Source of the DNA: Desulfuromonadales bacterium
GTDB lineage: Bacteria; Desulfobacterota; JAENJC01
Assembly (NCBI GenBank): GCA_919902985.1
Contig: CAKKSC010000067.1
Span: 1 to 43,224, forward strand
Direction of reading: 5' to 3'
DNA: 43,224 nt
Shown: in pieces, positions 4,391-40,818 of the stretch
Layout: the number at the start of each line of letters is the position of its first letter
Position numbering within the stretch: position 1 is the stretch's first letter
Program-made: the position numbers and the translations under genes
The notes under the pieces: generated by a model
Seen by the model: the letters and a program-made list of their open reading frames with translations, nothing else
The model's database searches: none
Told to the model about the DNA's origin: nothing

Positions 4391-4646
4391 TAGCAAGTTG
4401 CTTTCAAATTATATAATTATTGCCATTAGAGCCTCTTGCAAAACTATCTTTTGTGGTTCGACAAGCTCACCACGAACGGGGAAAAGTCAATGATTTTAAC
4501 CCTGCCACCGTTCACCTTGAGCTTGTCGAAGGGTAATTTCGGACTTTTGCAAGAGGCTTATTATTGAAAGCTTACTTGGTATTTATACCCGGATGGGTAT
4601 TATGCACGGGCATTCAAATGTCTTTATTTGAATGCGAATTGGTATT
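4391..4646 (+). repeat. Structured dispersed repeat, copy A (interrupted)
   Basis: One of three copies of a repeat running from an AGTTGCTTTCAA start to a GCGAATTGGTATT end. Within it are a GAAAGCTTACTTGGT arm (4565-4580), the hairpin ATACCC-GGAT-GGGTAT (4585-4600) and the hairpin GCATTCAAAT/ATTTGAATGC (4610-4635). Compared with the copies at 20421 and 15702 it carries an extra element of about 130 bases at 4430-4558. Its right end abuts the ybaB ribosome-binding site, so it lies in the ybaB leader. Confidence 0.8.
4430..4558. mobile_element. MITE-like element nested in repeat copy A
   Basis: A 129-base element with perfect 14-base terminal inverted repeats AGCCTCTTGCAAAA (4430-4443) and TTTTGCAAGAGGCT (4545-4558). 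Inside lie inverted copies of TTCGACAAGCTCA (4457-4469 and 4516-4529), the core seen at 766-801. TTA triplets flank the ends (4426-4428 and 4559-4561), a possible 3-base target duplication. It has no coding capacity. A 13-of-14 match to one terminus is at 16067-16080. Confidence 0.65.
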
Positions 4647-6046: not shown

Positions 6047-6538
6047 ATGGCGGTTCCTCAATTAGTGATGTATGAAGAAGAATCTCAGCAGATCAGTGTC
6101 GTTCTTGAGAGACTTAACAGGGAAGCTAATTCTAAGGTTGTCTTCCTTGTAGATAAAAATGGACAGTTGATATCTGCCGCCGGAGACACAAAAAACCTTG
6201 ACACAACTTCACTTGCCTCCCTTACAGCAGGGAACATTGCAGCAACAGGGGGGTTGGCAAAGCTGATAGGGGAAAAGGAGTTTTCCATCCTTTTTCACGA
6301 GGGGGAAAAGGACAATATCCACATATCCATTATAGGGCAACGTGTAATCCTTGTTGTTGTATTTGATACGAGATCATCCCTGGGGCTGGTAAGGCTCCGC
6401 GTCAAGAAGGCCAGCGATGAGTTGAAGACGATATTTGACGGTTTGCTTGCCAAGATGGAACAGAAGGAAGCCACAAATGTGGAATCTCCCTTTGCGGAGA
6501 TAACTGATGACGATATAGATGGTCTTTTTAGTGAATAG
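6047..6538 (+). CDS. mglB: MglB-like Roadblock/LC7 protein
   Basis: A 163-residue Roadblock/LC7-domain protein. In Myxococcus and Thermus, MglB dimers act as the GTPase-activating protein for MglA and help set cell polarity. The domain spans about residues 14-125, with [17 protein letters not shown], a Leu/Ala-rich central helix and the strand [19 protein letters not shown]. The C-terminal 40 residues are acidic and may be flexible. It has a good ribosome-binding site (AAGGAGATATT) and lies 11 bases before mglA, the usual mglBA order. Confidence 0.9.
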
Positions 6539-6549
6539 GAGGATCAGAT

Positions 6550-7137
6550 ATGTCTTTTATTAATTATTCCTCAAAAGAGATCAACTGCAAGATAGTATTT
6601 TATGGGCCAGGGCTTTGCGGCAAGACCACAAACCTTCAGTATGTTTACGGCAAGACCAATCCGGTAGCCAAGGGGAAGATGATCTCTCTGGCCACGGAGA
6701 CTGAGAGGACCCTTTTCTTTGACTTTCTGCCGCTGACCCTTGGGGAAATAAAGGGATTCAAGGTAAGGTTCCATCTGTACACTGTGCCGGGCCAGATATT
6801 TTATGATGCCAGCAGAAAGCTTATCCTCAAAGGTGTTGACGGAGTCGTGTTCGTTGCTGATTCCCAGGTTGAGAGGATGGAGGCCAATATAGAGAGTTTT
6901 GAAAACCTGGCAGTCAACCTGAAAGAGCAGGGTTATGACCTTGATAAGATCCCTTGTGTTGTTCAGTACAATAAGAGAGACCTACCTAACGCTGCGCCTT
7001 TGGAAGAGTTAAGGAATCTCCTCAATCCGAAAGGCATCCCGGAGTTTGAGGCGTGTGCCGCTACAGGGGAAGGTGTGTTTGAGACATTGAAGGGGATCTC
7101 AAAACTTGTACTGACAGAATTAAAGAAGGGACGCTGA
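6550..7137 (+). CDS. mglA: MglA-like small GTPase
   Basis: A 195-residue Ras-like GTPase of the bacterial MglA family, the polarity switch for gliding and type IV pili in Myxococcus. The P-loop GPGLCGKTT lies at about 19-27, the family-specific TVPGQ replaces the usual DxxGQ, and the NKRD guanine-specificity motif is near residue 137. [18 protein letters not shown] gives the switch region. MglB directly precedes it. In this genome the likely client is the Glt-like complex at 31-41 kb, which is inference from co-occurrence. Confidence 0.95.
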
Positions 7138-15691: not shown

Positions 15692-15701
15692 TTAATTATT
15701 A

Positions 15702-15803
15702 TACCAAGTTACTTTCAAATATTAATTTATTGCAATTATGGAAAGCTTACTTGATATTATACCTAAGCCTTCATTTCTTATCATTTGAAGGCGAATTGGT
15801 GTT
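15702..15803 (+). repeat. Structured dispersed repeat, copy C
   Basis: Starts TACCAAGTTACTTTCAA and ends GCGAATTGGTGTT like copies A and B. The central GGGTAT hairpin is eroded, but the third hairpin is kept with a changed pair: GCCTTCA/TGAAGGC here against GCATTCA/TGAATGC in copy A. It lies 25 bases upstream of ilvC. Confidence 0.75.
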
Positions 15804-20420: not shown

Positions 20421-20525
20421 TACCAAGTTGCTTTCAAGCCTAATGAAAGCTTACCTGGTGTTTATACCCGGATGGGTATTATACCTGAGCATTCAAAAGT
20501 TTTTATTTGAACGCGAATTGGTATT
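20421..20525 (+). repeat. Structured dispersed repeat, copy B (intact)
   Basis: The uninterrupted copy, about 105 bases. TACCAAGTT at the left can pair with AATTGGTA at the right. Inside are ACCAAGTTGCTTTCA/TGAAAGCTTACCTGGT, then ATACCC-GGAT-GGGTAT, then GCATTCAAA/TTTGAACGC. Folding gives up to three hairpins closed by an outer stem. It lies between the RNase J 3' end and the ABC-F start; bases 20526-20636 show nothing recognisable. Confidence 0.8.
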
Positions 20526-27400: not shown

Positions 27401-27623
27401 ATGAGCAGAAAGAATCTTGTGGTATGAAGAAATCTTTCTTGCTTTAAGGCCATAAAAACCTCCTGCCATGCTTTTTTCTAAGTCTATAATAAGCAGTGAG
27501 ATATTAATTCTGGTTTTTGTCTTTTAATATCAAAAGGTTCCCTGTGTTCTCGGTGGTTTGATAGTGAACTTAGGTTTCCTCCCTTTTTTGCAATGGATGG
27601 TTTTATGTGTTATCCTTCCAGAC

Positions 27624-28175
27624 ATGCTTGAATCGCTTATAAAAAGACTTAAAGAGATGCCGGACAACTGGCAGAGAAGGCTTTATTTCGCTGGTATCCT
27701 TACCAAGGCCCTCGAATCAGAGGGAATCCGCCCGATCATAGTTGGGGGTCACGCCGTAGAGTTTTATACCCTCGGCGGGTATGCCACCAGGGACATAGAT
27801 ATTGCCGTCCAGGACAGGGAAAGGCTGAATGGCCTGCTTTCCTCATGGGGATTCAAAAAAGAGGGGCGGCACTGGTACAGCGAAGAGCTGGACATGGCCA
27901 TAGAGGCCCCGGCCTCCGAACTTGCGGGAGATGCCAAAAGGGTAACCGAGGTTGAGGTAGAGGGATTGACTGTATACATCATCGGGATTGAAGACATCAT
28001 AATAGACAGGCTGAATGCCTTTGTTCACTGGAAGTCCCAGAGGGACGGCGACTGGGCAGAGGAGATGCTGGCCATCCATCATAAATCAATAGATCTCAGT
28101 TATCTGAACGAGAGGGCCGAAAAGGAGGAGACGGTCAGGGCCTTGAAAGATATGCTGAAAAGGACAGGGTTATGA
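27624..28175 (+). CDS. Nucleotidyltransferase-like protein
   Basis: A protein of 183 residues (from ATG 27624; a longer frame starts at 27558) with a minimal nucleotidyltransferase core: IIVGGHAVEFYTLGGYATRDIDI gives the GG-hxA and T-x-DID acidic pair, and LDMAIEAPASE continues the fold. It resembles the DUF6036/AbiEii-like nucleotidyltransferases found in toxin-antitoxin and similar modules. The C-terminal half has EDIIIDRLNAFVHWKSQRD, a helix common in that group. The next small gene overlaps by four bases, so the two act as a pair. No ribosome-binding site is clear for either start. Whether it is a toxin is inference. Confidence 0.72.
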   Translation: MLESLIKRLKEMPDNWQRRLYFAGILTKALESEGIRPIIVGGHAVEFYTLGGYATRDIDIAVQDRERLNGLLSSWGFKKEGRHWYSEELDMAIEAPASELAGDAKRVTEVEVEGLTVYIIGIEDIIIDRLNAFVHWKSQRDGDWAEEMLAIHHKSIDLSYLNERAEKEETVRALKDMLKRTGL

Positions 28176-28390
28176 AGAAGGTTGTTCTGGATGAGTATAT
28201 AAGGGAAAACAAGGCGGGATTCACGAGGATAAGGCTCGGGATGGACCGGGGGGATCGTCCTGTCCGGAGGATAAGGGATGCGGAAGAGAAGGCCGTTCTC
28301 TCAAAGCTGGATAGGGCGAGGTGGGGAAAGTGGATTCAAGAGGGAAGGATAGAGGTGGTGGGGGAAAGGAAGTTCAGGGTCAAGCTGTAA
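28172..28390 (+). CDS. Small basic partner of the nucleotidyltransferase
   Basis: A 72-residue, highly charged and basic protein that I do not recognise. It starts inside the stop of the nucleotidyltransferase gene (ATGA). Sequence such as EYIRENKAGFTRIRLGMDR and ARWGKWIQEGRIEVVGER suggests helices plus a small strand pair. Tight coupling fits a two-component module; in relatives a helical DNA-binding partner often accompanies the enzyme. No function can be stated. Bases 28391-28492 hold only a possible promoter (TTGACC near 28439). Confidence 0.6.
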   Translation: MKKVVLDEYIRENKAGFTRIRLGMDRGDRPVRRIRDAEEKAVLSKLDRARWGKWIQEGRIEVVGERKFRVKL

Positions 28391-28492
28391 GGTATAATCT
28401 GAACCCATCCCCGATTCTTTAATATCTATGCTTATTTTCTTGACCTGCATCTACTTTTTTGTTTAAGTTGAGAAAAACTTGTTAAATATATA

Positions 28493-28499
28493 GTTAGGC
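28493..28499 (+). other. Integron-type core site at the 5' edge of the cassette
   Basis: GTTAGGC fits the GTTRRRY core at which integron integrases cut between G and T. It stands 35 bases before the cassette ORF. No attI or integrase gene is visible upstream; the preceding sequence is A/T rich. Confidence 0.6.
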
Positions 28500-28533
28500 T
28501 CCATCTCGCTGCATCATCAAGACGGAAAGTTCA

Positions 28534-29004
28534 ATGACCTCAGAAAACGATACCAAGAAAGATGTGCCATCCTTAGAAGTGCTCTCAGAGTTATGTCGTC
28601 ACTACGATACGACGCTTTGGTCTGTCACGAGCCTCTGGGCAGCAGCAATCGGTGGCTTGCTCGTTTACAACACAGAACACTTTGATATGTGGCTCTCTAT
28701 TTTTGGAATGGGCATGACTGTTTGTGCATTCTTCTTCGCTGCAAGTTTTCGTAAGGTCAACGCGCAAGTTCAAGAAAAAATGCCAGAAGGAATGCGTTTG
28801 CTTTTCCGTTCACCTCCTGGGTTCCGTCAGTGGAACGGCTTTCTTTTAATGTTCCTTTCTCTAGATGTGCTTTGGGTTATGGTGCTTACAAAAAACATGC
28901 ACGAACTAATCTGCATCTGGGCTATATTTGGAGCAATAGCTGGTGGTGCTATCCTCTGTTATTGGTATGCTGCCAAAGGCAAGGGTTGTTCAGGTGGAGC
29001 CTAA
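28534..29004 (+). CDS. Cassette-borne membrane protein, unknown
   Basis: A 156-residue protein with four hydrophobic segments: about 29-47 (SVTSLWAAAIGGLLVYN), 52-71, 103-120 (FLLMFLSLDVLWVMVL) and 126-146 (CIWAIFGAIAGGAILCYWYA), with polar N- and C-termini. No family is recognised. Its TAA stop codon lies inside the attC inverse core, and the ORF starts soon after a GTTRRRY core: the usual format of an integron gene cassette. Codon use looks different from flanking genes (more CGT/GCA, fewer AGG), suggesting transfer. Its role may be protective, as for many cassette proteins, but this is unknown. Confidence 0.7.
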   Translation: MTSENDTKKDVPSLEVLSELCRHYDTTLWSVTSLWAAAIGGLLVYNTEHFDMWLSIFGMGMTVCAFFFAASFRKVNAQVQEKMPEGMRLLFRSPPGFRQWNGFLLMFLSLDVLWVMVLTKNMHELICIWAIFGAIAGGAILCYWYAAKGKGCSGGA

Positions 29005-29061
29005 CCCTGCGCTCAAGCGGGACTGCGCAAAAGCGCGCAGCCCCTTAGCTCCACGTTGGCG
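28999..29061 (+). other. attC recombination site
   Basis: Inverse core GCCTAAC (28999-29005) and core GTTGGCG (29055-29061) bound a 63-base imperfect palindrome. On folding, AAC, GCT, AAG and GGG blocks of the left arm pair with the right arm with extra unpaired bases, as in attC, and CTGCGC/GCGCAG closes on an AAAA loop. The right core is off consensus (GTTRRRY) in its last two bases. Confidence 0.75.
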
Positions 29062-29074
29062 GGGAATATTTAAT

Positions 29075-29218
29075 ATGAAATCCATTTACAACAAGTGTTA
29101 CAAAGCAATTGGTGGCTCGAATAATGAAGATGTAATTTGGTATACAACCAAGCGCCCGGAACTTTATAGGGTCAGGTCTATATTGTTTGACTGCTCGGAA
29201 AATAAGGTCGGAAAATAG
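29075..29218 (+). CDS. Short ORF after attC, perhaps a truncated second cassette
   Basis: A 47-residue frame starting MKSIYNKCYKAIGGSNNEDV, 13 bases after the attC core and preceded by GGGGAA. The first half could be the start of a cassette gene. The second half is encoded by GGGTCAGGTCTATATTGTTT, a phrase typical of REP-associated repeats, so the original gene is probably interrupted there. Bases 29219-29366 hold nothing I can name. Confidence 0.35.
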   Translation: MKSIYNKCYKAIGGSNNEDVIWYTTKRPELYRVRSILFDCSENKVGK

Positions 29219-29366
29219 GGTCAGCGCCCATTTAAAGTTAATCTTTCGCCATACCAGCCCAGCAAAGGGTGGATTCATGAGTCCTCCCTACAAAATGCTC
29301 AAATCTGAACCTGGATAGGTATGCGCGATTGCGATTTCACAAGGGATGGGATAGAATTCGAGAGGT

Positions 29367-30986
29367 ATGGACCCATTCCCCAACATGAAGGACTACAATA
29401 AAGAGTACAGGGAATTCTCCCTGTCGGTCCCTGAGAGGTTTTCATTCCCACTGGATGTCTTTGACAAATGGGGAGATGCAGCGGCCCTCTTCTGGACGGA
29501 CGGCGTCTCTGAAAAGAAGTTCTCCTTCAATGATCTGAAGACCCTCTCTTCAAAGGGGGCGGGGGCCTTAAGAAAAATGGGCATCGGGAGGGGAGACAAG
29601 GTGCTTGTCATGCTCCCGAACATCCCTGAGTGGTGGGAGGTGATGCTGGCCCTCATGAGGCTGACCGCCATACCTATCCCTGCCACAACCCTTCTTGCAT
29701 CAAATGACATAGAATACAGGCTGAAGGCGACGGATATAAAGGCCGTCATCTGCACTGAGGAAGACGCTGCAAAGGTGGAGGAGGCGATCAAAGTAGCGGC
29801 TGGAAGCAAGCCTATCCTTATAACCATTGGTGAAGGGGCAGGACACCTTGATTATCTGAAAGAGAGGGAAGGGGCTGAACAGTTTGTGGGGGAAAGGGGA
29901 TCATCCCATGATACGGCATTAATATACTTTACGTCAGGTACTACCGGCCTTCCCAAGATGGTGGTCCATACCCAGGCCTCATATCCACTGGCGCACATGA
30001 TAACAGGCAAATACTGGCTGGATCTCAGACCCGGCGACGTCCACTGGAACATCTCTGATACGGGATGGGCAAAGGCCGCATGGTCGAGTCTCTTCGGGCC
30101 ATGGAACATGGGCGCAACCGTTTTCTCCTATTATAAAAAAGGTAAGTTCGACCCGCTGACAATATTGGATGTTATGCAGAGATATCCGGTCACTACCTTC
30201 TGCGGCCCGCCTACAGCTTACAGGATGATGGCGAAGGAGCTTCCCCCCGGCAAACTGAATCTCAACCCTCGGCACTTTGTTGCTGCCGGAGAGCCGTTGA
30301 ACAAGGAGATAATCCATATCTGGAAAGAGAGAACAGGGAAGTACATCTATGACGGATACGGCCAGACAGAGAGTGTTAACCTCCTCGCCAACTTCAGGTG
30401 TATCCATTCAAAACCCGGCTCCATGGGAGTTCCCACCCCCGGATTTACCATTGCTGTCCTTGGTGAAAATGGGGACCCGGCTCCCACAGGCACCGAAGGG
30501 GAGATAGCTGTAAAGGTCAAGCCTGACAGGCCTGTGGGGCTTTTCAAGGAATACCTCGGCAACCCGGAGGCCACAGCGAATGCCTTCAAGGGCGACTGGT
30601 ATCTCACAGGCGACAGGGGATACAGGGACGATGATGGTTATTTCTGGTTTGTGGGAAGGGCAGATGACATTATTCTTACATCAGGGTACAGGATAGGGCC
30701 TTTTGAAGTGGAGTCTGTCTTAATCGAGCACCCTGCAGTTAAGGAATCGGCTGTTGTCGCCAGCCCTGACGAGGTGAGGGGCGAGGTGGTAAAGGCCTTC
30801 GTTGTCCTCACGAAAAATGTTCCCCCGTCTGATCCCTTGGTAAAGGAACTCCAGGAGTTTGTAAAGATGCATGCCGCCCCTTACAAGTACCCAAGGAAGA
30901 TAGAGTTCGTAGATGAACTGCCGAAGACCATAAGCGGGAAGATAAAGAGGAAAGAACTGAAGAGAAAGGAGTTTGAAAGGGACTGA
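29367..30986 (+). CDS. Acyl-CoA synthetase (medium-chain/ACSM-like)
   Basis: A 539-residue ATP-dependent, AMP-forming ligase that activates a carboxylic acid to its CoA thioester. Motifs: the P-loop-like YFTSGTTGLPKMVVH (about 187-201), YDGYGQTE (about 329-336), YLTGDRGYRDDDGYFWFVGR (about 410-430) and the C-terminal catalytic-Lys segment ISGKIKRKELKRKE. The overall order and N-terminus are like medium-chain/ACSM-type synthetases rather than long-chain FadD; the acid used cannot be told. GAGAGGT precedes the ATG. It is transcribed alone ahead of the Glt-like operon. Confidence 0.9.
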   Translation: MDPFPNMKDYNKEYREFSLSVPERFSFPLDVFDKWGDAAALFWTDGVSEKKFSFNDLKTLSSKGAGALRKMGIGRGDKVLVMLPNIPEWWEVMLALMRLTAIPIPATTLLASNDIEYRLKATDIKAVICTEEDAAKVEEAIKVAAGSKPILITIGEGAGHLDYLKEREGAEQFVGERGSSHDTALIYFTSGTTGLPKMVVHTQASYPLAHMITGKYWLDLRPGDVHWNISDTGWAKAAWSSLFGPWNMGATVFSYYKKGKFDPLTILDVMQRYPVTTFCGPPTAYRMMAKELPPGKLNLNPRHFVAAGEPLNKEIIHIWKERTGKYIYDGYGQTESVNLLANFRCIHSKPGSMGVPTPGFTIAVLGENGDPAPTGTEGEIAVKVKPDRPVGLFKEYLGNPEATANAFKGDWYLTGDRGYRDDDGYFWFVGRADDIILTSGYRIGPFEVESVLIEHPAVKESAVVASPDEVRGEVVKAFVVLTKNVPPSDPLVKELQEFVKMHAAPYKYPRKIEFVDELPKTISGKIKRKELKRKEFERD

Positions 30987-31091
30987 AATTTTTAGTTAGT
31001 TTCGCAAATATTAGAGAGACCTTCACACCAGGAACGCCTCTTCTATCTTGAGTTAACCCCGCCATCATAATATTTAAGCCAGAAAAAAAGC

Positions 31092-31120
31092 TCGACCCAC
31101 TATAATAAAAACGGTATAAT
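31092..31120 (+). promoter_or_regulatory. Promoter of the Glt-like operon
   Basis: TCGACC (31092-31097; four of six) and a perfect TATAAT (31115-31120) with an exact 17-base spacer, 32 bases upstream of the first gene. A second TATAAT-like box is inside the spacer (31101-31106). Bases 30987-31091 show no gene. Confidence 0.6.
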
Positions 31121-31151
31121 AATTAACAAATTAGTTGTGTCAGGAGGTATT

Positions 31152-31709
31152 ATGTCAGATATGCATAAAGGGACCTTAGCAGCAATTGCATCAATGATGA
31201 TGATAATCTTCTCCGACCCAGTGTGTTTTGCAGGAGAGATCAATCGTCCTGAGGCGGCTGAGGCCGTGAGAAATCTAATAATGCAGTTGAACGCCACCTA
31301 TGTGTCCTTAAATAAGTCATTGAAACAGCTTGAGAAAGAAGGTATCGGCTCTCTACCTGATACAATCCTTAATATTTCGGTGAGGAAGCGTGAAAAAGAT
31401 ATTAAACTTCTCGCCTTAGATATACAGGATAACAACAAGCCTTTTGAAAGTCATCTTTATTCACCTTCCGAAGACGAAGCACTTAATGCCGGCGGTCGTC
31501 ATCAGATATTTCGTGGAGCAGTGACCGAGGGTATGCATGAGCTGAAGGTAAAATACTACTGGAAACTACAGGCCTCGACACAAGAGGGGCTGGCAGTTGT
31601 CCCGGTATCAGTAAAGCTTGGGAAGAGCCACTTCATAGATCTGTCTATCCTGAAGGTTGGGGATCGGGTGCAGCTAATAAGTTCTCAGCTTGATTTCAGT
31701 GACAGGTGA
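31152..31709 (+). CDS. Secreted protein opening the Glt-like operon
   Basis: A 185-residue protein from ATG 31152, supported by AGGAGG five bases before. A signal peptide of about 27 residues ends PVCFAGE. The mature part has a helical section (AAEAVRNLIMQLNATYVSLN) followed by beta-rich sequence (HQIFRGAVTEGMHELKVKYYWKLQ), like a small periplasmic beta domain. I recognise no named family. As first gene of an operon with TPR, ExbB/D and TonB-like proteins it is likely a periplasmic part of that complex. It overlaps the next frame near its end. Confidence 0.7.
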   Translation: MSDMHKGTLAAIASMMMIIFSDPVCFAGEINRPEAAEAVRNLIMQLNATYVSLNKSLKQLEKEGIGSLPDTILNISVRKREKDIKLLALDIQDNNKPFESHLYSPSEDEALNAGGRHQIFRGAVTEGMHELKVKYYWKLQASTQEGLAVVPVSVKLGKSHFIDLSILKVGDRVQLISSQLDFSDR

Positions 31710-31713
31710 CAGA

Positions 31714-33549
31714 ATGCGCTGGATTAAGGCTGTATCACTCCTATTACTTATAGTTCTGCCTCATCCCATAATGGCGGAGAATGTCAACCGTGAATCGACG
31801 GTTCATTCCCTTCAGGTAGAATCAGAAACTCTGTCAAAGCTATCGCTTCCACTGAAAGAGTACCAGTATCAGAGTGCTGTATTCTATTATTTAACACAGG
31901 ATTACTTGTCACTAACAGAGGTTAGTGAAGATTTCCTTAAAATCTCGCCCAAAGAAAAAGAAAGGATGCTGCTTCTTCTCAAACTCGCGGATATGAACCG
32001 TTTTTCCATTTCTAAGTCTCCTCCTCTTACATCTCAAATATCTCATGAGGACAATCTTTTTGTTGCCGGACTTCTGGATCTTTCTTACCGTGCAGGATTG
32101 TATGATGAGGTTTTAAACATCAGCACACTCTCAGGGGATAAGGGAATGGCCCGATATTATGAAGGAGTGAGCCTTATACGCAGAAACAAATTAAAGGAAG
32201 CAAGTTCAGCGCTGGCCCAGGTCCTCCCAAATGACAAATTTTACCCTTACGCCAGGATCGCATTGTCCCAGATCGAGGTTATCAGGCATAACTTTGATAA
32301 AGCTGAAGAATACCTTAAGACACTTCTCTCCTACCCTGACCTTAATAAGACCTCCCTTACTTCAAAGGTTCATTTAATGCTTGGGCAACTCCTTTTTGAA
32401 AAAGGAGCTTACCCCATGGCAGAGGAGGAGTTCTCAAAAGTCACTGAGGAAGGCCTTAAGAATGGCGCCCAGATCGGCAGGGCCTGGAGTTTGGTCAAGC
32501 TTGAAAATTATGAAAAAGCCATGCCTATGCTGAAAGGACTGTCATTAACCCCTCCTTATAGTCCAACTGAATGGGAGACACAGATACTCTGCGGTTATTG
32601 TTACCTCAAAACAGATAAAGGAGGCAAGGGAATAGATCATTTTCAGGAACTGCTGGATACCTATTCTCATACAGAAGATAGACTGGATCAGATTATCAAA
32701 GATGAGGCAGCAATTCGACGCTACCGTTCCATCCTCATTAAGGAAGCCCCTCTACAGTTAACTGCAGAGGAGCAACACTACATTGCAGGTCTGCAGAATG
32801 ACCCCATTATAGCCATATATCTGAAAGAGTACGCAGAAATTCAGGCTCTGAAGACGGAATTTTTAAAAAAAGATAGAGATGCCGAAAAAGTTCAGATATC
32901 GATTGACAACAAAATCAAGATGGGCGAAGCAATGTTGAGGGATATGGACAAGGTGATAATCAAGCCTATTCAGAACACGAATACTGTAATAGGAAAGACT
33001 CGTTCGAGGCCAGTTAATGATGTCACCTTCTTTTCGACCTGGATATTCAATTACTGGCATCGGGTGTTGGGCAGGGATGTGTCTGAGGATTCAAAATGGC
33101 TGGTTGAACAGATACTTCAGAAGTTCATGTATGAAGAGAACCTCCAATGCAGGGGGGTTCCTATCCTGTGTCACCTTGTCAGCGTATTCAGCGGCCAGAA
33201 GATAAGGGAGACACCTGAGCAGATACGAGAGATTGTCGAGGTCCTCGAGAGTATTGCAACAGATCTTAAAAGCGTTTCAAAAGGGGAAAAGATCAAATTT
33301 GAGGTCATTGCATCGCGTCTTCGTGAAAGGGGCAATATAATGAATAAAGTAATGGAGACGCTGTGGGGGATTTCAGGAATAAGGGATGAAATAAAAAAAA
33401 CCATCCCTGAAATAGACAGAGGGTTTGCGATCTGTCTCACGAGCCTCGACAAACGGATAAAGGAAAGGCTCCTGTTGGCAAAATACGAGCTTGTGGACTA
33501 TAGAGAGAAGGTTGTTGCTGGATTGACTCTTGCCATGGGTGCGAAGTAG
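31714..33549 (+). CDS. Exported TPR-type protein
   Basis: A 611-residue exported protein from ATG 31714 (MRWIKAVSLLLLIVLPHPIM), with a signal peptide ending IMA-EN. An earlier ATG at 31690 would overlap the preceding gene. The mature part is helical with TPR-like repeats: for example YDEVLNISTLSGDKGMARYY, then KAEEYLKTLLSYPDLN, then YPMAEEEFSKVTEEGLKNGA. The last third is coiled-coil-like and charged. It probably is a periplasmic scaffold of the envelope complex. The next gene follows after two bases. Confidence 0.75.
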   Translation: MRWIKAVSLLLLIVLPHPIMAENVNRESTVHSLQVESETLSKLSLPLKEYQYQSAVFYYLTQDYLSLTEVSEDFLKISPKEKERMLLLLKLADMNRFSISKSPPLTSQISHEDNLFVAGLLDLSYRAGLYDEVLNISTLSGDKGMARYYEGVSLIRRNKLKEASSALAQVLPNDKFYPYARIALSQIEVIRHNFDKAEEYLKTLLSYPDLNKTSLTSKVHLMLGQLLFEKGAYPMAEEEFSKVTEEGLKNGAQIGRAWSLVKLENYEKAMPMLKGLSLTPPYSPTEWETQILCGYCYLKTDKGGKGIDHFQELLDTYSHTEDRLDQIIKDEAAIRRYRSILIKEAPLQLTAEEQHYIAGLQNDPIIAIYLKEYAEIQALKTEFLKKDRDAEKVQISIDNKIKMGEAMLRDMDKVIIKPIQNTNTVIGKTRSRPVNDVTFFSTWIFNYWHRVLGRDVSEDSKWLVEQILQKFMYEENLQCRGVPILCHLVSVFSGQKIRETPEQIREIVEVLESIATDLKSVSKGEKIKFEVIASRLRERGNIMNKVMETLWGISGIRDEIKKTIPEIDRGFAICLTSLDKRIKERLLLAKYELVDYREKVVAGLTLAMGAK

Positions 33550-33551
33550 GG

Positions 33552-36356
33552 ATGTTCTCGATGTTGATGAATATTAAATTTATTTTGTTTATAGCCTGCA
33601 TAATGATGTTTTATGCATGTCAAACTGCTCAAATAAAGGGCATTGGAACGGTTGATGAATTAAGCAAGGCCCGGGAACAAGAAAATAAAAGGATCAGAGA
33701 GTCTGAAGAATATAAAATCAGAGAGTGGGAAGAGTATATGGGCCTTCTGAGAGATCAAGACCTTTCCCATAACACGATCTTAAGGCTCACGGAAGAGTAT
33801 CTTCAGGCAAAAGACATCGTGTATAAAAAAGATATGGAAGAGTACGATAGAAGAACCGCTCTTTACCAGAAGGGACAATTAAAAGAGCTGCCCAAAGAGC
33901 CGGTGCAGGACTATTCAACCCTGATAAGCAGGTTCAAACCTATCGCAAAAAATTACCGATATGGAAAAGGGGCTGACGCTATCCTGTATATTACTGCTTT
34001 TGCCCTTTACGAACATGGAAAGAGAGACGAAGCTGCAAAAATATTTGAGGAAATGCTTAAAACTTATCCATATAGTGATTACTTTCTTGAGGTCTCTTTC
34101 AGACTCGGTGAATTCTACTTTGAAACTGGTCAGATGGGAGAGGCACTGGAAGCGTACAAAAAAGCGATTAACTTTCGCGACTCCCTGCTTTACGAAAAGG
34201 CCCTGTATAAAATCGGCTGGATATATTACAAGATTGATGACTTTGAAAAATCGGCCCAGTCTTTTGTGTCTGTTCTTGATTCTAAATGGAGCCAGGATGG
34301 CAAGCAGGATGGGCTTACCGAGGAGGCGGTGACATCCACTGTAATGGCTCTTTCCCATTTTAAGGGTGCGAAGCAGTCAATTGATTTTTTAACCTCTCAG
34401 GGTACTAAAAAAATGTACCTTCCAGCAGTCATGGTGCAACTTGGCGATAAGCTTACTGAAGAAACAAGGTTTGACGATACGTTGTTGGTATATAAGACCC
34501 TTGAAGAGTGGTTCCCCGAGAATTCAGAACTGCCGGTTATTTATGATAAGATTGCAAATCTATACGATAAGATGTCGAAGGAGAATGACGCCATAGCTAC
34601 AGACTGGTTAGCTATCCATAAGTTTAATCCTGGTACCGCCTGGTACAAAAAGAATTATTACAAATCGAACTACTTTAAAGCTGTTGACGCCCTTCTATCT
34701 AAGAAAATGATCTCAATCTCCAAAAAATATCACGTCAGGGGCAAAAAGGAAGCCAAGCCTGAATATCTGGAGAAGGCAATTGACGGTTACTGGGTATTCC
34801 TGTCTTCCTATCCCGCAATGCCGGAAGCTAAGAATATCAACCTTCTTCTGGCAGAGGCCTTGTTTGATGCAGGAAAATATGCCGAGGCAGCAGAAGAATA
34901 TAAGAAGGCAGCAAATTTATATCCTGCCGGGGCAGAGAGAGGTGATATAGCATTTTCTGCATTGCTGACTTACGAAGTGATATTTTACCAGTCAGAAAAG
35001 GGCGATAAAGAGATCATCAAACCTGCTGAACTGTTAGTTGCGGGGTATGAGTCAGATCTTATAAAAAACGGTAAGTTCGAGAATTCAATTAACAAAATAG
35101 CAGATATGTATACTCAGATAGGTGATTATGATAAGGCCAGAAGCAGTATCAAACTACTTGCAAAGGTGAAAGACCCTACTTTGGTCTCTCTGAAGACCGC
35201 TGAACTTTACCTGAAGGAGAATAACCTGGCAGCTGCCGAAGATCTATATGCCAGATTGAACGAGAAGCAAAGCACTCCTGCAACTAAAGATGCCCTCGCA
35301 AATATCCGTTACAGTATTGCTGAGGAACATGTCAAAGAAGAAAGGTTTAAGGATGCGGTTACCAAATTTAATCAGGTTTTTTCCACTTTCCCTGGTTCCA
35401 AGGTTGGCGAAGCGGCACTGGTTAAGCTGGGGTACCTTTATCTTCAGAAAAAAGAGATAGACAGTGTTGAGGATATTGCCATAAGGTTTGTAAAGGCATA
35501 TCCCGAATCAGGTAAGACCTTACCTCTTATGGTAGAAGCAGGCCGAGGAATTGAGAGGGAAGAACCAGTACGGGCGGCAGGTCTTTATGAAAAAGCTTCT
35601 ACCCTGACAAGAGACCATGTTACTTCGACAAAGCTTGCTCTTGCTGCTGCCCTGCTTTACGAAGCAAACAAAGATTATCAGAAGGCGGAACCCCTTTATA
35701 AGAAATACCTGGAAAGAGAGAGCATTCCTCTTAATGACGAAGCGGATGTTCGTTTGAGATTAGGGACCGTTCAATTTCGAACAGGTAAAAAGAAAGAGGG
35801 TCTGGAAAGTCTGAACATGGTATTGGCATTGGAAGGGAAGGTGAATGAAACTATAATTGGGAAGGCACGGCTGCTTATGCTCGAAGTTAAGGAATCAGTC
35901 TATCTCGGGACAAAGCTCACCCAGTCGTTTGAGGAGACTTTTCAGAAAAAGACTTCTCTTCTTGACGGACTACTCAAGGACTATTCACAGGTCATAAAAT
36001 ATAAGGTGCTTGAACTGCAGCCCGAGGTTTATTTTAAGATGGGAACTGCCCTGGAGAACTTCAAGGAGACCATGATACAGTCAGAGAGGCCTTCCGGTAT
36101 GAGCAAGGAGGAGCTTGAAGAATATAGTTTCCTTCTGGAGGAAAGGGCATATCCTTATGAGGAACAGTCTGTTAAGGCTTTCGAAAAAGGGCTCCTGGCA
36201 GGAGTAAGAAATAGAATAAATAATGATTGGGTAGACAAATGCTTTAAGAAACTTGCCAGTATAAGACCGGCAGTATATAAGAGGGATACCGGAGAAAAGG
36301 GACCGGAGCCATTATTTTTGCGTATAGAACCAGTGAGGCTTGAAAAAGGACTATGA
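33552..36356 (+). CDS. Large TPR lipoprotein
   Basis: A 934-residue protein with a lipoprotein-like signal (IMMFYACQ, Cys about 23) and many tetratricopeptide repeats across most of its length, such as EHGKRDEAAKIFEEMLKTYP, MGEALEAYKKAINF, AGKYAEAAEEYKKAANLYPA and KEERFKDAVTKFNQVFSTFPG. The lipid anchor suggests outer-membrane attachment facing the periplasm. Long TPR proteins such as GltI, and the TPR lipoprotein GltE (AglT), occur in the Myxococcus Glt complex; equivalence is only inferred. Its stop overlaps the next start (ATGA). Confidence 0.8.
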   Translation: MFSMLMNIKFILFIACIMMFYACQTAQIKGIGTVDELSKAREQENKRIRESEEYKIREWEEYMGLLRDQDLSHNTILRLTEEYLQAKDIVYKKDMEEYDRRTALYQKGQLKELPKEPVQDYSTLISRFKPIAKNYRYGKGADAILYITAFALYEHGKRDEAAKIFEEMLKTYPYSDYFLEVSFRLGEFYFETGQMGEALEAYKKAINFRDSLLYEKALYKIGWIYYKIDDFEKSAQSFVSVLDSKWSQDGKQDGLTEEAVTSTVMALSHFKGAKQSIDFLTSQGTKKMYLPAVMVQLGDKLTEETRFDDTLLVYKTLEEWFPENSELPVIYDKIANLYDKMSKENDAIATDWLAIHKFNPGTAWYKKNYYKSNYFKAVDALLSKKMISISKKYHVRGKKEAKPEYLEKAIDGYWVFLSSYPAMPEAKNINLLLAEALFDAGKYAEAAEEYKKAANLYPAGAERGDIAFSALLTYEVIFYQSEKGDKEIIKPAELLVAGYESDLIKNGKFENSINKIADMYTQIGDYDKARSSIKLLAKVKDPTLVSLKTAELYLKENNLAAAEDLYARLNEKQSTPATKDALANIRYSIAEEHVKEERFKDAVTKFNQVFSTFPGSKVGEAALVKLGYLYLQKKEIDSVEDIAIRFVKAYPESGKTLPLMVEAGRGIEREEPVRAAGLYEKASTLTRDHVTSTKLALAAALLYEANKDYQKAEPLYKKYLERESIPLNDEADVRLRLGTVQFRTGKKKEGLESLNMVLALEGKVNETIIGKARLLMLEVKESVYLGTKLTQSFEETFQKKTSLLDGLLKDYSQVIKYKVLELQPEVYFKMGTALENFKETMIQSERPSGMSKEELEEYSFLLEERAYPYEEQSVKAFEKGLLAGVRNRINNDWVDKCFKKLASIRPAVYKRDTGEKGPEPLFLRIEPVRLEKGL

Positions 36357-37267
36357 AAGTCAGAGTAAAAGCGTATATAATACTGATCCTGTGTGCGGGA
36401 TGTGCGGGGCCCGAGGTCAAGCCCTCGATAGAGGGCACATCTTCTCAGGAAAAGGTTGGCATAAGTGATGCTGCAACCAAGGAGCGGATGACAAAGCTCT
36501 TTGATGAAGGTCTCAGAATAATGGATGACAACCCGAAGGGTGCCCTCGCGTTGTTTAATGAGATACTGATGGTTGTTCCCGATAGATGGGAGATATATTA
36601 TAATTCAGGCCTCTCTTATTTGAGACTCAATGAATATGAAAAGGCTGAAGAACGGTTTAAAAAGGCTTTGAAAAACAATGCTCCGCCTGTAAAGGCCTAC
36701 AATGCCATCGGCTCCGTATATCTGGCAAGCGGCAACATGATAAAGGCGGTAGAGACCATCAAAAAAAGTCTGGATATTGAAGAGTCGCAGACGGCAATGA
36801 TCAATATCGCCGGGGCCTATCAGGCCTTGGGACAAAACGATATGGCCGTTAAATATTACCGTAAAGCCGGGCTGGCAGACCCATCGAACAGGGTCATTCA
36901 CAATAACCTTGGCGTTCTCCTTTACAATATGGGGAATTACAAAGGTGCACTGGAAGAGTTCAACAAGGCGTTGGATAAGAAAGGTGATGATGATGCAAGG
37001 CTTCTCATGTACGAAGCCCAGTCAGTTTTAAAGACCGGCGATTATGAAGGGGCGGTAAATACCTTTAAACGTATGCTGGCTGTTGTCCCGGACAACCCCT
37101 CCCCCTTTCTGAACATGGGGATCATATATGAAATTTACCTGATGGATATGGAAAAGGCCGTCGAAAACTTTGAAGCCTACATAAAAAAAGGTGGTCCAAA
37201 GGCTAAGGAAGTTGAAGCATGGCTTGAAATAGCCAGGAATAAGGGAAAGTCAAAGGAGGGGGGCTGA
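36353..37267 (+). CDS. TPR lipoprotein
   Basis: A 304-residue protein with a lipoprotein signal (YIILILCAGCAG) and about six TPR units between residues 55 and 295, for example YEKAEERFKKALKNNAPPVK, GQNDMAVKYYRKAGLADPSN and GNYKGALEEFNKALDKKGD. Likely anchored in the outer membrane and acting as an assembly platform, comparable to PilF-, GltE/AglT-type proteins. Overlaps the previous gene by four bases and the next by one. Confidence 0.82.
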   Translation: MKVRVKAYIILILCAGCAGPEVKPSIEGTSSQEKVGISDAATKERMTKLFDEGLRIMDDNPKGALALFNEILMVVPDRWEIYYNSGLSYLRLNEYEKAEERFKKALKNNAPPVKAYNAIGSVYLASGNMIKAVETIKKSLDIEESQTAMINIAGAYQALGQNDMAVKYYRKAGLADPSNRVIHNNLGVLLYNMGNYKGALEEFNKALDKKGDDDARLLMYEAQSVLKTGDYEGAVNTFKRMLAVVPDNPSPFLNMGIIYEIYLMDMEKAVENFEAYIKKGGPKAKEVEAWLEIARNKGKSKEGG

Positions 37268-37560
37268 TGAAGAGTCTATGTCTTGCAGCTGTTATATTAC
37301 TCTTTTTCGCTGCCGGTGTAAGGTCTGAGGAGACTGCATCAACTAAAAAGTCAATGGGCTCAGGACCTGAAGAGATTGTTGAAAGAATTATTAAGGTCGA
37401 AGGGTCTCTCGAAAGACCGAGGGTGATATTTATACTTCCACGGGCAAAGCTGTGGAAGGAAGACCTCTCAAAGAGGAGCTTCGTTGGAGAAATCCTGGAG
37501 TCGGTGTATCCGGAAACGGTAATTGAAGATATTCTTAGAAATAGAACAGTCAGGAGGTAG
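37267..37560 (+). CDS. Small exported protein of the Glt-like operon
   Basis: A 97-residue protein with a signal peptide (MKSLCLAAVILLFFAAGVRS-EE) and a short charged mature part including EEIVERIIKVEGSLERPRVI and FILPRAKLWKEDL. I do not recognise the family. It is squeezed between the TPR lipoprotein and the ExbB gene with almost no spacing, so it likely belongs to the same complex in the periplasm. Confidence 0.65.
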   Translation: MKSLCLAAVILLFFAAGVRSEETASTKKSMGSGPEEIVERIIKVEGSLERPRVIFILPRAKLWKEDLSKRSFVGEILESVYPETVIEDILRNRTVRR

Positions 37561-37562
37561 TA

Positions 37563-38195
37563 ATGGAAACAATTGCAATGTGGTTTAAAGAGGGTGGCTT
37601 TGTTATGTATGTCATACTGGCCGTTGGGCTGCTCGGCCTGTCTGTAATTATTGAACGGTCAATTGTCCTGATACATAAATACAACGTTGATGCCAGGGCT
37701 CTCTGGGGGAAGGTCAGCAAACTTATCAGAGACGGCAATGCGCCACAGGCCCAGGCTTTATGCAAGGATTCGGACGCTCCGCTCCTCAGGGTTTTACACG
37801 CCGGGATAGCGGCGTCTGACGGCAGTGAAAGGGACATTCAGAACGCCATTGATGAGGTCACCCTGGAGGTCATGCCGACCATTAACAAGAGGTTATCTCA
37901 CCTGCTGACAATAGCCAACATAGCTACTCTTATAGGGCTTCTTGGAACAGTCCATGGTCTGATGGAGGCGTTTGGCGCGTTGGCTAACGCAGACCCTTCT
38001 CAGAAGGCAACAATCCTGGCAAGAGGTATATCCATAGTTCTTTATGCGACGGCCTTCGGGCTTCTGGTAGCTATTCCAATGCTTGGCGCTTATGCAGTCC
38101 TTCAGTCCAAAGCTCATAAGATAATCGACGACATCGATGAATTTTCTGTGAAACTTATAAACCTGCTTCACAGCAGGAGGAAGCATGTCGTATAA
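37563..38195 (+). CDS. MotA/TolQ/ExbB-family motor protein
   Basis: A 210-residue inner-membrane protein with the three-helix TolQ/ExbB plan: TM1 about 13-32 (FVMYVILAVGLLGLSVIIER), a large cytoplasmic loop, TM2 about 115-138 (ATLIGLLGTVHGLMEAF) and TM3 about 155-180 (GISIVLYATAFGLLVAIPML). Such pentamers form the proton channel with ExbD/TolR dimers and power envelope work. In Myxococcus the equivalent AglR drives gliding. It has AGGAGG before its ATG and overlaps the first ExbD gene by 11 bases. Confidence 0.92.
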   Translation: METIAMWFKEGGFVMYVILAVGLLGLSVIIERSIVLIHKYNVDARALWGKVSKLIRDGNAPQAQALCKDSDAPLLRVLHAGIAASDGSERDIQNAIDEVTLEVMPTINKRLSHLLTIANIATLIGLLGTVHGLMEAFGALANADPSQKATILARGISIVLYATAFGLLVAIPMLGAYAVLQSKAHKIIDDIDEFSVKLINLLHSRRKHVV

Positions 38196-38676
38196 GCCAA
38201 GCAGACGTGGACATTCTCAGCATGAAGAGACCGAGTTAAACCTTCTCCCTATGATGAACATGTTCATCATCATAATCAGCTTTCTTATGACAACTGCCAT
38301 CTTTGCCAAGACGGCACTTATCGACGTCTACCTGCCTCAGGAAGGCAGTGGTGGTGGCACTGGCAGCGGTGGACAGGCTGCTTATGCACCTCCGGCCATA
38401 CTGACAGTCAGTACCACTGAAAAAGGTTTTGAGCTTGGCGGAATCGGGGGTGGAAGATTTATACCAAAAAAGGGTGGGAACCTGGATTATTCCCAACTTA
38501 CCGCAGATCTTCTCATGCTGAAACAGAGCTATCCTGACAAAGAGGATGCTATCCTCCTTTTCCCTCCGGAAATGTCATATGACATAGTTGTAAAGGTCAT
38601 GGATGCCTCAAGAGAAACCGAGGAACGCCCAAAACAGACCCTGTTCCCTTTGGCATCCCTGGGGGAGGTGAAATAG
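38185..38676 (+). CDS. ExbD/TolR-like protein, catalytic Asp replaced
   Basis: A 163-residue ExbD/TolR homologue with one N-terminal TM helix (about 23-44, MMNMFIIIISFLMTTAIF) and a periplasmic domain, with a Gly/Ser-rich stretch at 53-63. At the position of the conserved aspartate that carries protons in ExbD/TolR, this copy has Asn25 (LPMMNMF against LTSLMDVF in the next gene). It probably forms a heteromer with the next protein, as AglS and AglQ do in Myxococcus. The gene overlaps exbB-like by 11 bases. Confidence 0.88.
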   Translation: MSYKPSRRGHSQHEETELNLLPMMNMFIIIISFLMTTAIFAKTALIDVYLPQEGSGGGTGSGGQAAYAPPAILTVSTTEKGFELGGIGGGRFIPKKGGNLDYSQLTADLLMLKQSYPDKEDAILLFPPEMSYDIVVKVMDASRETEERPKQTLFPLASLGEVK

Positions 38677-38678
38677 GA

Positions 38679-39176
38679 ATGCCTTTCGCTCCATCAAAAA
38701 GAAAACCTAAAAGGAAAGGAGATGGGCCCATCAATCTGTCTCTTACCTCATTGATGGATGTATTTACCATCATCCTTGTCTTCCTGCTGATGAGCTACTC
38801 CAGCGAGGGTGAGATCCTGACTGCAGACCCAAGACTTAAACTTCCAATCTCAACCTCTGCTCAGTCTCCCAAGCTAAAGCTGTCAGTCCAGTTGACTACC
38901 GATGAGGTCATTGTCGACGGCGTTAAAGTCACAACTGTACAGGAAGCCATGAGCGGAGAAGATTACCTGATCAAGCCGGTTTTAGCGGCCCTCGAAAAGA
39001 ATACCGAGAGGATGAAGTTTATTGCAAAAAGTAACGTCGCCCTGAAGTTTACTGGCGACATTGTAATCATGGGAGACGAACACATCCCCTTTATCCTCAT
39101 CGAGAGGGTAATGTATACGTGCGGCCAGGCTGGATATGGCAATATCTCATTGGCGGTTGCGTCCAGTGATAAATAA
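38679..39176 (+). CDS. ExbD/TolR-like protein, canonical
   Basis: The second ExbD/TolR homologue, 165 residues. The TM helix (about 22-41) keeps the key aspartate D27 in SLTSLMDVFTIILVFLL. The periplasmic domain contains KLKLSVQLTTDEVIVDGVKV and FTGDIVIMGDEHIPFILIERV, the usual beta-alpha fold that contacts peptidoglycan. Paired with the Asn-containing paralogue just upstream and the ExbB-like channel protein, it should make the proton-driven stator. Starts two bases after its neighbour; the next gene overlaps its end. Confidence 0.92.
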   Translation: MPFAPSKRKPKRKGDGPINLSLTSLMDVFTIILVFLLMSYSSEGEILTADPRLKLPISTSAQSPKLKLSVQLTTDEVIVDGVKVTTVQEAMSGEDYLIKPVLAALEKNTERMKFIAKSNVALKFTGDIVIMGDEHIPFILIERVMYTCGQAGYGNISLAVASSDK

Positions 39177-40773
39177 AAAAATATTTTATATATCTGTAAA
39201 TAAGCTTGGCAAAGAGCCTGAAGAGGTCATCCCATCTTCAGGCGCAAGGTCTCTATTTATTGGAACCGGGAAAAACTGCGATATCATCGCTTCCATCCCA
39301 TTGCTTCCGGCCAGACACAGCATATTAAAGAGGAGCATCTCTGGCTACAACCTTGTAGTTCCTCCATCGGCTTCACTTTTCATAACCATAGGCGATTCGA
39401 CAATCCCCATAAAAAGTCTTGTAGACCTCGGTCTTCTTAAAAAGAAGGGGGACTTCTACCTGTTTCCCATTCCTGACAAGGCTCCCTGTACGGTGAAGTC
39501 TGATGACGTCATACTGACTTTCGGGTATAAAGAAAAACCACAACATGTAAAGAAACCGCTGGCAAAAGTCGACAGCTCTCTAAAAAAACACTTCGTTAAA
39601 AAGGAAGACTATGCATTTATAGCTATCCTCGTTACTGTATATATATTCGGTACTTCCTTTGCAGCATACATAAATTCTATGAAGATTACAAAGAAGGAGT
39701 CGGCGCAGATCATCAAGGAAATGCCTCAGAGATTTGCCAAGCTGGTGATGGAGGCTCCAAAGAAGGTCGCTCCCAAGAATATTGGTAAAGGAATGACAAC
39801 TTCCGGGGAAGGTAAATCGGAGACAAAGACCGAGGGAACTCCGGTAGAAGCAGCTAAGGATACCAGAGAAACCAAGGAATCTAAGGAAATTAAGGAAACA
39901 AAAAAGTCGGCCAGAGCTGAGCCATCAGCCGCTGTTGAGGTCGCATCTGCCGGCAGTTCAGCCGCAGTTGTATCAGGTGGTGGAGGCGGTAGTCGAGGTT
40001 CAGGCTCAGGTGGTGGAGGCGGTGGTTCTGGGTCCGGCAGCGGCAGCGTAAAATCCAGAGGGCTTCTCGGGGTGATTATGGCCAAATCGAAGCCACCGGA
40101 ATTCCTGAATCAGGACATGTTCAGTGAGGCAGAAGACACTGGAAGGGCCGCAGCTAGTGGAGCCAGAAGCTCCAGAAGCGGCAGCCAAATGGCTACAAGT
40201 GAGGTCTTGTCCGATATTGTAACTGCCAAGAACCAGGGCGGAGGTACAGGGGGAGGATTTGGAAGCGGAATCGGCAGTGGCAGCGGCGGAGGAGGAGAAG
40301 GCGATGGCGATGGCGGTGGCTTTGGTACCGGGATCGGCACTGGTGAAGGCCCCGGAGTTCCCAAAGGAGGAAAGCAGCGGGCAGCTGATATTATAAAGGA
40401 AAAGAAAGATATCATAGTAGCTGAGATTGAAAAAGAAAAACCCCAGAAGAGGGATGCCGAGACCACGGCAAATCTGAGGAAAAGGGATGAGTCGGAGATT
40501 TACAAGACCATAATTTCCTATGTAGGAGGGTTGAAGTATCTATACAATAATGCCCTCCGGAAGGACTCAACCCTTAAAGGCAAGATATCGGCAAAGATAA
40601 TTGTCGCCCAGGATGGAAAAGTGAGGGAGGCGACCCTGGTATCTTCAACCCTCAATTCTAAAGAGCTGGAAGAAGCCATACTCAGCAGGATACTTAAATG
40701 GAAATTCCCTGAACTGCTTGGTGGTGATGAATTTTCAATAACCTACACGTTTGACTTCTCACCCGTTGGTTAG
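39136..40773 (+). CDS. FHA-like/TonB (AgmX/PglI C-terminal) protein
   Basis: A 545-residue fusion-like protein resembling GltG/GltJ of Myxococcus. Order: a degenerate FHA-like domain (about 15-135; SLFIGTGKNCDIIAS and LLPARHSIL), one TM helix (about 158-178), a charged region, two Gly/Ser-rich blocks (about 281-305 and 365-412), and a C-terminal TonB-like AgmX/PglI domain (about 455-545; KISAKIIVAQDGKVREATLV, LEEAILSRILKWKFPE). The domain order means a cytoplasmic signal-reading head joined through the membrane to a periplasmic arm that could be moved by the ExbB/D motor. The start may be GTG 39166 rather than ATG 39136, which overlaps the previous gene by 41 bases. It closes the operon. Confidence 0.88.
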   Translation: MAISHWRLRPVINKKIFYISVNKLGKEPEEVIPSSGARSLFIGTGKNCDIIASIPLLPARHSILKRSISGYNLVVPPSASLFITIGDSTIPIKSLVDLGLLKKKGDFYLFPIPDKAPCTVKSDDVILTFGYKEKPQHVKKPLAKVDSSLKKHFVKKEDYAFIAILVTVYIFGTSFAAYINSMKITKKESAQIIKEMPQRFAKLVMEAPKKVAPKNIGKGMTTSGEGKSETKTEGTPVEAAKDTRETKESKEIKETKKSARAEPSAAVEVASAGSSAAVVSGGGGGSRGSGSGGGGGGSGSGSGSVKSRGLLGVIMAKSKPPEFLNQDMFSEAEDTGRAAASGARSSRSGSQMATSEVLSDIVTAKNQGGGTGGGFGSGIGSGSGGGGEGDGDGGGFGTGIGTGEGPGVPKGGKQRAADIIKEKKDIIVAEIEKEKPQKRDAETTANLRKRDESEIYKTIISYVGGLKYLYNNALRKDSTLKGKISAKIIVAQDGKVREATLVSSTLNSKELEEAILSRILKWKFPELLGGDEFSITYTFDFSPVG

Positions 40774-40818
40774 CATAACTGATCGGTTTAATAACCCAAC
40801 TGTATTTCATGCAATTGC

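Follow-up and report, generated by a model that had tools for sequence, protein, structure and literature searches.

A compact Agl/Glt core complex with an asymmetric ExbD pair encoded by a Desulfuromonadales bacterium

The Operon and Its Genes

The window, meaning the whole stretch of 43,224 nucleotides that was analysed, contains nine open reading frames that span positions 31152-40773, all on the plus strand, and that either overlap or are separated by 4 bp or less. From orfA to orfI the spacings are +4, +2, -4, -1, +2, -11, +2, and -41 bp. The genes are as follows:

orfA, 31152..31709, plus strand: small exported protein of 185 aa with a signal peptide, a coiled coil, and a beta-sandwich; conserved first gene of the operon
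orfB, 31714..33549, plus strand: exported TPR protein in the GltC position, with Pfam TPR matches
orfC, 33552..36356, plus strand: TPR lipoprotein, GltD homologue, with Pfam TPR matches
orfD, 36353..37267, plus strand: TPR lipoprotein, GltE homologue, with TPR matches; 46 bits against NF033758 (GltE), below the cut-off
orfE, 37267..37560, plus strand: small exported protein, relative of the GltF/CglF family
orfF, 37563..38195, plus strand: AglR-like TolQ/ExbB proton channel (MotA/TolQ/ExbB), PF01618 at 92.8 bits
orfG, 38185..38676, plus strand: first ExbD, in the AglQ position, PF02472 at 50.8 bits; N25 replaces the channel aspartate
orfH, 38679..39176, plus strand: second ExbD, in the AglS position, PF02472 at 46.8 bits; D27 is kept
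orfI, 39136..40773, plus strand: GltG homologue with an FHA-fold cytoplasmic domain, a transmembrane helix, a low-complexity periplasmic linker, and a TonB/AgmX-type tail

A rightward cluster of nine genes encoding TPR proteins, an ExbB/TolQ channel, two ExbD/TolR proteins, and an AgmX/PglI protein had been proposed here in a first-pass annotation, and both its coordinates and its description agree with the list of open reading frames and with Pfam and NCBIfam. The same annotation left the proteins encoded at 31152 and 37267 unnamed. This still holds for orfA, which belongs to no named family, while orfE is a relative of GltF according to hhalign. Neither has a curated match in Pfam or NCBIfam. 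Judged by HMM matches and position, the order of the operon is orfA, GltC, GltD, GltE, GltF, AglR, the ExbD of the AglQ position, the ExbD of the AglS position, and GltG. Homologues of aglR, aglQ, aglS, gltC, gltD, gltE, and gltG are all found in this one region using Pfam, NCBIfam, and the HMMs.

Relationship to the Myxococcota Loci

HMMs built from window-type operons matched several Myxococcota genomes, with the genes in the corresponding order. The orfB HMM matched the open reading frames in the GltC position with E-values of 1e-3 to 2e-14, the orfC HMM those in the GltD position with 2e-79 to 6e-177, the orfD HMM those in the GltE position with 1e-14 to 9e-28, and the orfI HMM matched GltG with 6e-35 to 1e-54. 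The GltE-position proteins of the Myxococcota score 118-153 bits against NF033758. The reference glt loci are from Myxococcota genomes other than M. xanthus and are GltC/E/G/CglF-like, all below the NCBIfam cut-offs; at one of them (L128) the same positions give 289.7 bits for GltC, 118.3 for GltE, 392.1 for GltG, and 61.8 for CglF. The Glt/Agl homology proposed in the first-pass annotation is thus borne out gene by gene, with E-values that vary between the genes from about 1e-3 to 1e-177, and this includes the similarity of the three TPR proteins encoded by orfB, orfC, and orfD to Glt proteins. The matches support the view that the genes are homologues of those encoding GltC, GltD, GltE, GltF, GltG, AglR, AglQ, and AglS, and that they do not constitute an ordinary Tol system.

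Luciano et al. (2011; PMC3169522) describe a core complex, 'Group B', in which GltC, GltD, GltE, and GltG are encoded together with AglR, AglQ, and AglS in one region. These authors found the complex in non-gliding bacteria, assigned it no function, and noted one further gene that lacks homologues in Myxococcales and Bdellovibrionales. The operon is a member of this single-region core complex, and is consequently an already known system found in new host lineages. The complex is a widespread, proton-driven machine that spans the cell envelope and that gave rise, in evolution, to the gliding motor of Myxococcus. The operon has in common with the complex of the 2011 paper the gene set, the arrangement in one operon, and the occurrence in non-gliding lineages, and its orfA may correspond to the one extra gene, but it differs in its host lineages and in containing a GltF-family gene, which the paper places in Group A. 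The literature yielded no experimental work on a compact core complex.

A search of 84,980 species genomes with an AglR alignment gave 80 loci from Deltaproteobacteria metagenome-assembled genomes, Nitrospinota, Nitrospirota, KSB1, Calditrichota, Myxococcota, Bdellovibrionota, Gammaproteobacteria, and others. These relatives are the best AglR matches to the window-type proteins, and the sample is not an unbiased census. The full order from orfA to orfI is seen again in L020, L024, L025, L027, L028, L030, L031, and others, and since these are unrelated metagenome-assembled genomes, the gene order is not due to chance. The order from orfC to orfI, or close variants of it, is far more widespread among the relatives than the full order. 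Groups that share the gene order are Deltaproteobacteria metagenome-assembled genomes, Nitrospinota, Nitrospirota, Calditrichota, KSB1, Gammaproteobacteria, and Myxococcota. One genome (G029, locus L017) has genes of the orfC, orfD, orfE, and orfI type in a row with a gene for an orfA-like exported protein, with no AglRQS genes between them. The motor in this genome must be encoded elsewhere or be shared.

OrfA, GltF, and GltG

The family alignment of orfA has 15 members, including proteins from Gammaproteobacteria and Nitrospirota, and the family is also found in Nitrospinota; it has no family-wide Pfam match. The AlphaFold model (pLDDT 84.8) gave no match to the PDB at E<=0.001, the best hits being generic beta-sandwiches. 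OrfA is a candidate for the additional gene of the core complex described in the 2011 paper.

The orfE family consists of about 38 small exported proteins encoded between gltE and aglR in many phyla. When its profile was compared with that of Myxococcota GltF using hhalign, the probability was 91.7 and the score 41.1 over an alignment of 45 columns, while 30 column shuffles gave at most a probability of 1.6 and a score of 16.9. The window protein alone did not match the curated NF033764. Among the other Glt parts that had been suggested for a search, GltF is accordingly represented by its relative orfE. Because the family profile matches Myxococcota GltF, and because the gene is located between gltE and aglR across phyla, GltF seems to belong to the core complex; the evidence is good but not overwhelming since the alignment is so short. 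Luciano et al. (PMC3169522) put gltF in the later-recruited Group A, limited to Myxococcales and Bdellovibrionales. Placing GltF in the core set would imply that this recruitment scheme needs to be revised.

OrfI scores 89 bits against NF033760 (GltG), which is below the cut-off of 650, and 71.6 bits against NF033768 (AgmX/PglI tail), which is above the cut-off of 40. There is no Pfam FHA match in its N-terminal 150 residues, and only one of 13 relatives has one. However, the top PDB matches for the AlphaFold model (pLDDT 89.8) are FHA domains (Foldseek probability 1.00, best E-value 0.01, none below 0.001), in agreement with the FHA-like N-terminus that had been suggested from the sequence. 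Judged by eye from the family alignment, the canonical phosphothreonine-binding residues look degenerate.

The AglR Motor and Its ExbD Pair

The channel threonines of AglR, T129 and T163 in orfF, are invariant in 79 of 79 AglR-like proteins. The transmembrane channel residue at the aspartate position of the orfG family is asparagine in 46, serine in 11, and cysteine in two of 59 aligned sequences, and aspartate in none, while the orfH family has aspartate in all 65 sequences. When the AglRQS sets of 78 relatives and the window are considered as pairs, 52 are N+D, 12 S+D, two C+D, and 11 D+D, and in two the second ExbD was not read. The 77 sets where both residues were read thus comprise 66 with N, S, or C in the first protein and D in the second, 11 D+D, and no D+N. 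All of the D+D cases come from Bdellovibrionota, from a single Gemmatimonadota, or from Myxococcota genomes with long GltG matches. For a non-redundant count, AglR was collapsed at 90% identity and the loci were classed by architecture, not by residue. The first ExbD (ExbD1) then has asparagine in 37, serine in five, cysteine in two, and aspartate in none of 44 compact operons; among 24 loci that are non-compact or cut by contig ends, eight have aspartate. The scan relied on the channel protein alone and was therefore blind to ExbD.

For M. xanthus it is reported that the aglQ D28N mutation abolishes proton conductance and leaves the motor paralysed (PMC3858216). The aspartate is described for AglQ as well as for AglS, and it is stated to be unknown whether they form hetero- or homodimers (PMC9389320). 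The loss of the ExbD1 aspartate is not mentioned in the available sections of Luciano et al. (PMC3169522). In compact core complexes, one member of the ExbD pair thus naturally has the state that inactivates the gliding motor. Since the channel aspartate is found only in the second ExbD, we infer that the two proteins pair as a heterodimeric axle in which one proton site is active. OrfG may also be structural or regulatory and located outside the AglR pentamer, or orfH alone may supply both copies in the AglR motor. Resolution is lacking in the deep branches of the AglR tree, which does not fix the ancestral ExbD state. We regard it as a serious, if tentative, possibility that the ancestral Agl motor was an obligate hetero-ExbD machine, in which one helix carried the aspartate while the other was locked in a neutral state by Asn, Ser, or Cys. 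Such a motor would have one proton-driven step, compared with two in ExbBD, TolQR, and the D+D gliding motors, the gliding-type motors having two active aspartates. The change from Asp to Asn, Ser, or Cys in one ExbD is natural, near-universal, and spread over many phyla, which opens the heterodimer idea to direct tests, and the ExbD1 residue provides a simple sequence mark that distinguishes compact core complexes from the D+D AglRQS motors.

Proposed Mechanism and Load

The complete Agl/Glt core complex is probably a TonB-like force transducer driven by the proton motive force, with one active aspartate per ExbD pair, and it possibly handles surface polysaccharide. AglR and the two ExbD proteins would form a proton-driven inner-membrane motor similar to TolQR and ExbBD, with orfG and orfH as the axle around one active proton site and orfG in a structural or regulatory role. 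GltG would have its FHA-fold domain in the cytoplasm and extend, by way of a flexible linker in the periplasm, to the TonB-like tail. It would hand the force to three exported proteins, GltF, GltC, and orfA, and also to GltD and GltE, the TPR lipoproteins beneath the outer membrane. While the homology and the architecture are observed, this force path is modelled on M. xanthus, where AglR and GltG interact in a two-hybrid assay (PMC3169522), and on the pulling models that have been reviewed (PMC9389320). No outer-membrane beta-barrel is encoded in the window operon.

The closest paralogue of the Glt complex is Nfs, which works with AglRQS and a Wza-type exporter, and which in M. xanthus moves spore-coat polysaccharide (PMC3858216; PMC3169522). 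The likeness to the window operon lies in the Glt-type transducer and the AglRQS motor, with a surface polymer as the load in Nfs. However, no sporulation or exo genes are seen near the window operon, and its motor is encoded inside the operon. Poly_export/Wza genes are found close to the operons of four relatives (L039, L050, L051, and L052), but this neighbourhood is seen in few lineages, and L049, which is part of the Wza cluster, looks artefactual. Since Wza genes lie near a few of the relatives' operons and Nfs moves spore-coat polysaccharide, the handling of a surface polymer may be suggested as the likeliest job for the operon. The specific form of this explanation, that the complex moves or secretes surface polysaccharide like the Nfs-Exo spore-coat system, is possible, but we hold it with some reserve as no Wza exporter adjoins the window operon or appears among the loci listed for its closest clade.

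Downstream of GltG in L051 (13684-16390) are genes for a small exported protein, a predicted beta-barrel, and a Wza-type exporter, and in L039 (15101-17412) genes for a Wza-type exporter and a Wzz-like protein. These could be the load that the core complex acts on at the outer membrane. The recurrent neighbours of the operon among the relatives are otherwise response regulators and a few clade-specific genes in addition to Wza/SLBB, while many others are antisense artefacts. An ABC-F ATPase that seemed to recur is probably noise.

Comparison with Tol-Pal and ExbBD-TonB

The TolQ/ExbB-type channel, which is closest to TolQ/ExbB in curated libraries, the ExbD pair, and the TonB-like tail of GltG are all shared with the Tol-Pal and ExbBD-TonB systems, and the operon could in principle encode a variant of one of these, serving outer-membrane integrity or uptake. 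However, it differs from both in having two different ExbD genes, one of them lacking the aspartate, an FHA domain, and TPR lipoproteins, and Tol-Pal and TonB systems have neither the GltC/D/E/F set nor an FHA domain. TolA, TolB, and Pal are not encoded in the window operon. TolB (411.7 bits), TolA-like, and YbgF/CpoB-like proteins are encoded on another contig of the genome (C70), which ends just before the expected place of tolQR, and a separate ExbB-ExbD pair is found on contig C22. A Tol or TonB variant is therefore unlikely. An ordinary Tol system, which the first-pass annotation had considered as the alternative, is contradicted by the TolB/TolA-like locus elsewhere in the genome and by the presence of the Glt homologues.

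MglAB and Gliding

The window also encodes MglB (Roadblock, 6047-6538) and MglA (Arf/Ras-like, 6550-7137), located 24 kb from the operon, and in both the window and its relatives recR is followed by mglBA downstream. The presence of mglBA had suggested that the operon might work under MglA/MglB. This is not supported. In none of the 80 relatives is there a match to mglA or mglB in the sequence flanking the operon (up to 10 kb), and MglA is present in 89 of 148 genomes (60%) of the phylum sample anyway. It is found in 37 of the 46 genomes searched from the 80-locus set, but was not detected in any of four Nitrospinota genomes that carry the operon (completeness not reported). Conversely, two congeners (about 86 and 79% complete) have kept both mglA genes but have no DNA matching 30985-40816, while both flanks are 88-97% identical; this absence could partly reflect incompleteness, all genomes of the window clade being metagenome-assembled. 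That the operon occurs without detected MglA, and mglA without the operon, speaks against an obligatory coupling between them, and the genome distribution suggests that the operon does not need MglA. Functional coupling of MglAB and Glt was consequently rejected as a conclusion from proximity. The co-occurrence is weak: in the phylum sample, 15 genomes have a GltG-like match, and 12 of these have MglA, compared to 77 of the 133 others (p 0.16), while MglA is present in all of the eight genomes with the strongest GltG matches compared to 81 of 140 in the rest (p 0.02, not corrected for kinship).

The operon shares homologues of GltC, GltD, GltE, GltF, GltG, AglR, AglQ, and AglS with the M. xanthus Agl-Glt gliding machinery. 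The latter is, however, encoded by three loci instead of one operon, and has D28 in AglQ where the window orfG has N25. It also has GltJ. The only protein with a myxo_SS_tail (AgmX/PglI tail) in the 95%-complete window genome is orfI, so that GltJ is absent as far as the assembly shows; of the GltG/GltJ-type pair that had been assumed, only GltG is present. GltA, GltB, GltH, GltI, and GltK are not seen within the operon. A true Agl/Glt gliding motor steered by MglA/MglB would fit the finding that eight of the nine genes have Glt/Agl homologues, the mglBA and second mglA genes in the genome, and the slight enrichment of MglA with strong GltG matches, but it is the least probable explanation and very doubtful given the missing GltJ, the lack of mgl linkage, the Nitrospinota operons without MglA, the congeners with mglA and no operon, the loss from ExbD1 of an aspartate whose loss paralyses the M. 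xanthus motor, and the D+D state of the AglRQS sets from Bdellovibrionota and from Myxococcota with long GltG matches. Nothing found ties the operon to gliding or to the nearby MglAB switch. The operon also occurs in small genomes in which MglA is not detected, and these would be the place to investigate its original, non-gliding function.

The genome encodes the type IV pilus motor ATPase PilT (above the cut-off), and the type IV pilus motor would be a likelier client for MglA. A second, longer MglA of 341 aa is encoded elsewhere in the genome (L173 5856-6881, G000:C8); it is 63% identical over the MglA part, and its gene adjoins one for a protein of 190 aa.

Genomic Setting

The genome probably belongs to Desulfobacterota in the GTDB sense, as one genome of its phylum (G023) groups with sequences of Deferrisomatales. 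The first 5 kb of the operon have a GC content of 42-43%, compared to about 48-52% in the flanks. Since the operon is not found in the two congeners and has a lower GC content at its start, it may be an accessory unit that has been laterally gained or lost. In one congener (G001), ilvC is found within 24 bp after ilvH (L164) and ilvB near leuA (L167), while ilvH and ilvC are 25 kb apart in the window (15676-40819) with the glt operon between them. A rearrangement would explain this separation; an error in the assembly is the less probable cause.

A segment with a DUF6036 nucleotidyltransferase-like gene (27405-29377), in the gap between the transketolase and acyl-CoA synthetase genes, is missing in both congeners and is possibly a small mobile or toxin-antitoxin-like insertion. 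A dispersed intergenic repeat is found at about 4508-4645, 15699-15800, and 20475-20524. It is common to contigs of the congeners (L164, L162, L163) and lies near one edge of the rearranged segment. At 1129-1485 on the minus strand there is an open reading frame for a weakly VapC-like toxin, with a score of 24.7 bits, which is below the cut-off.
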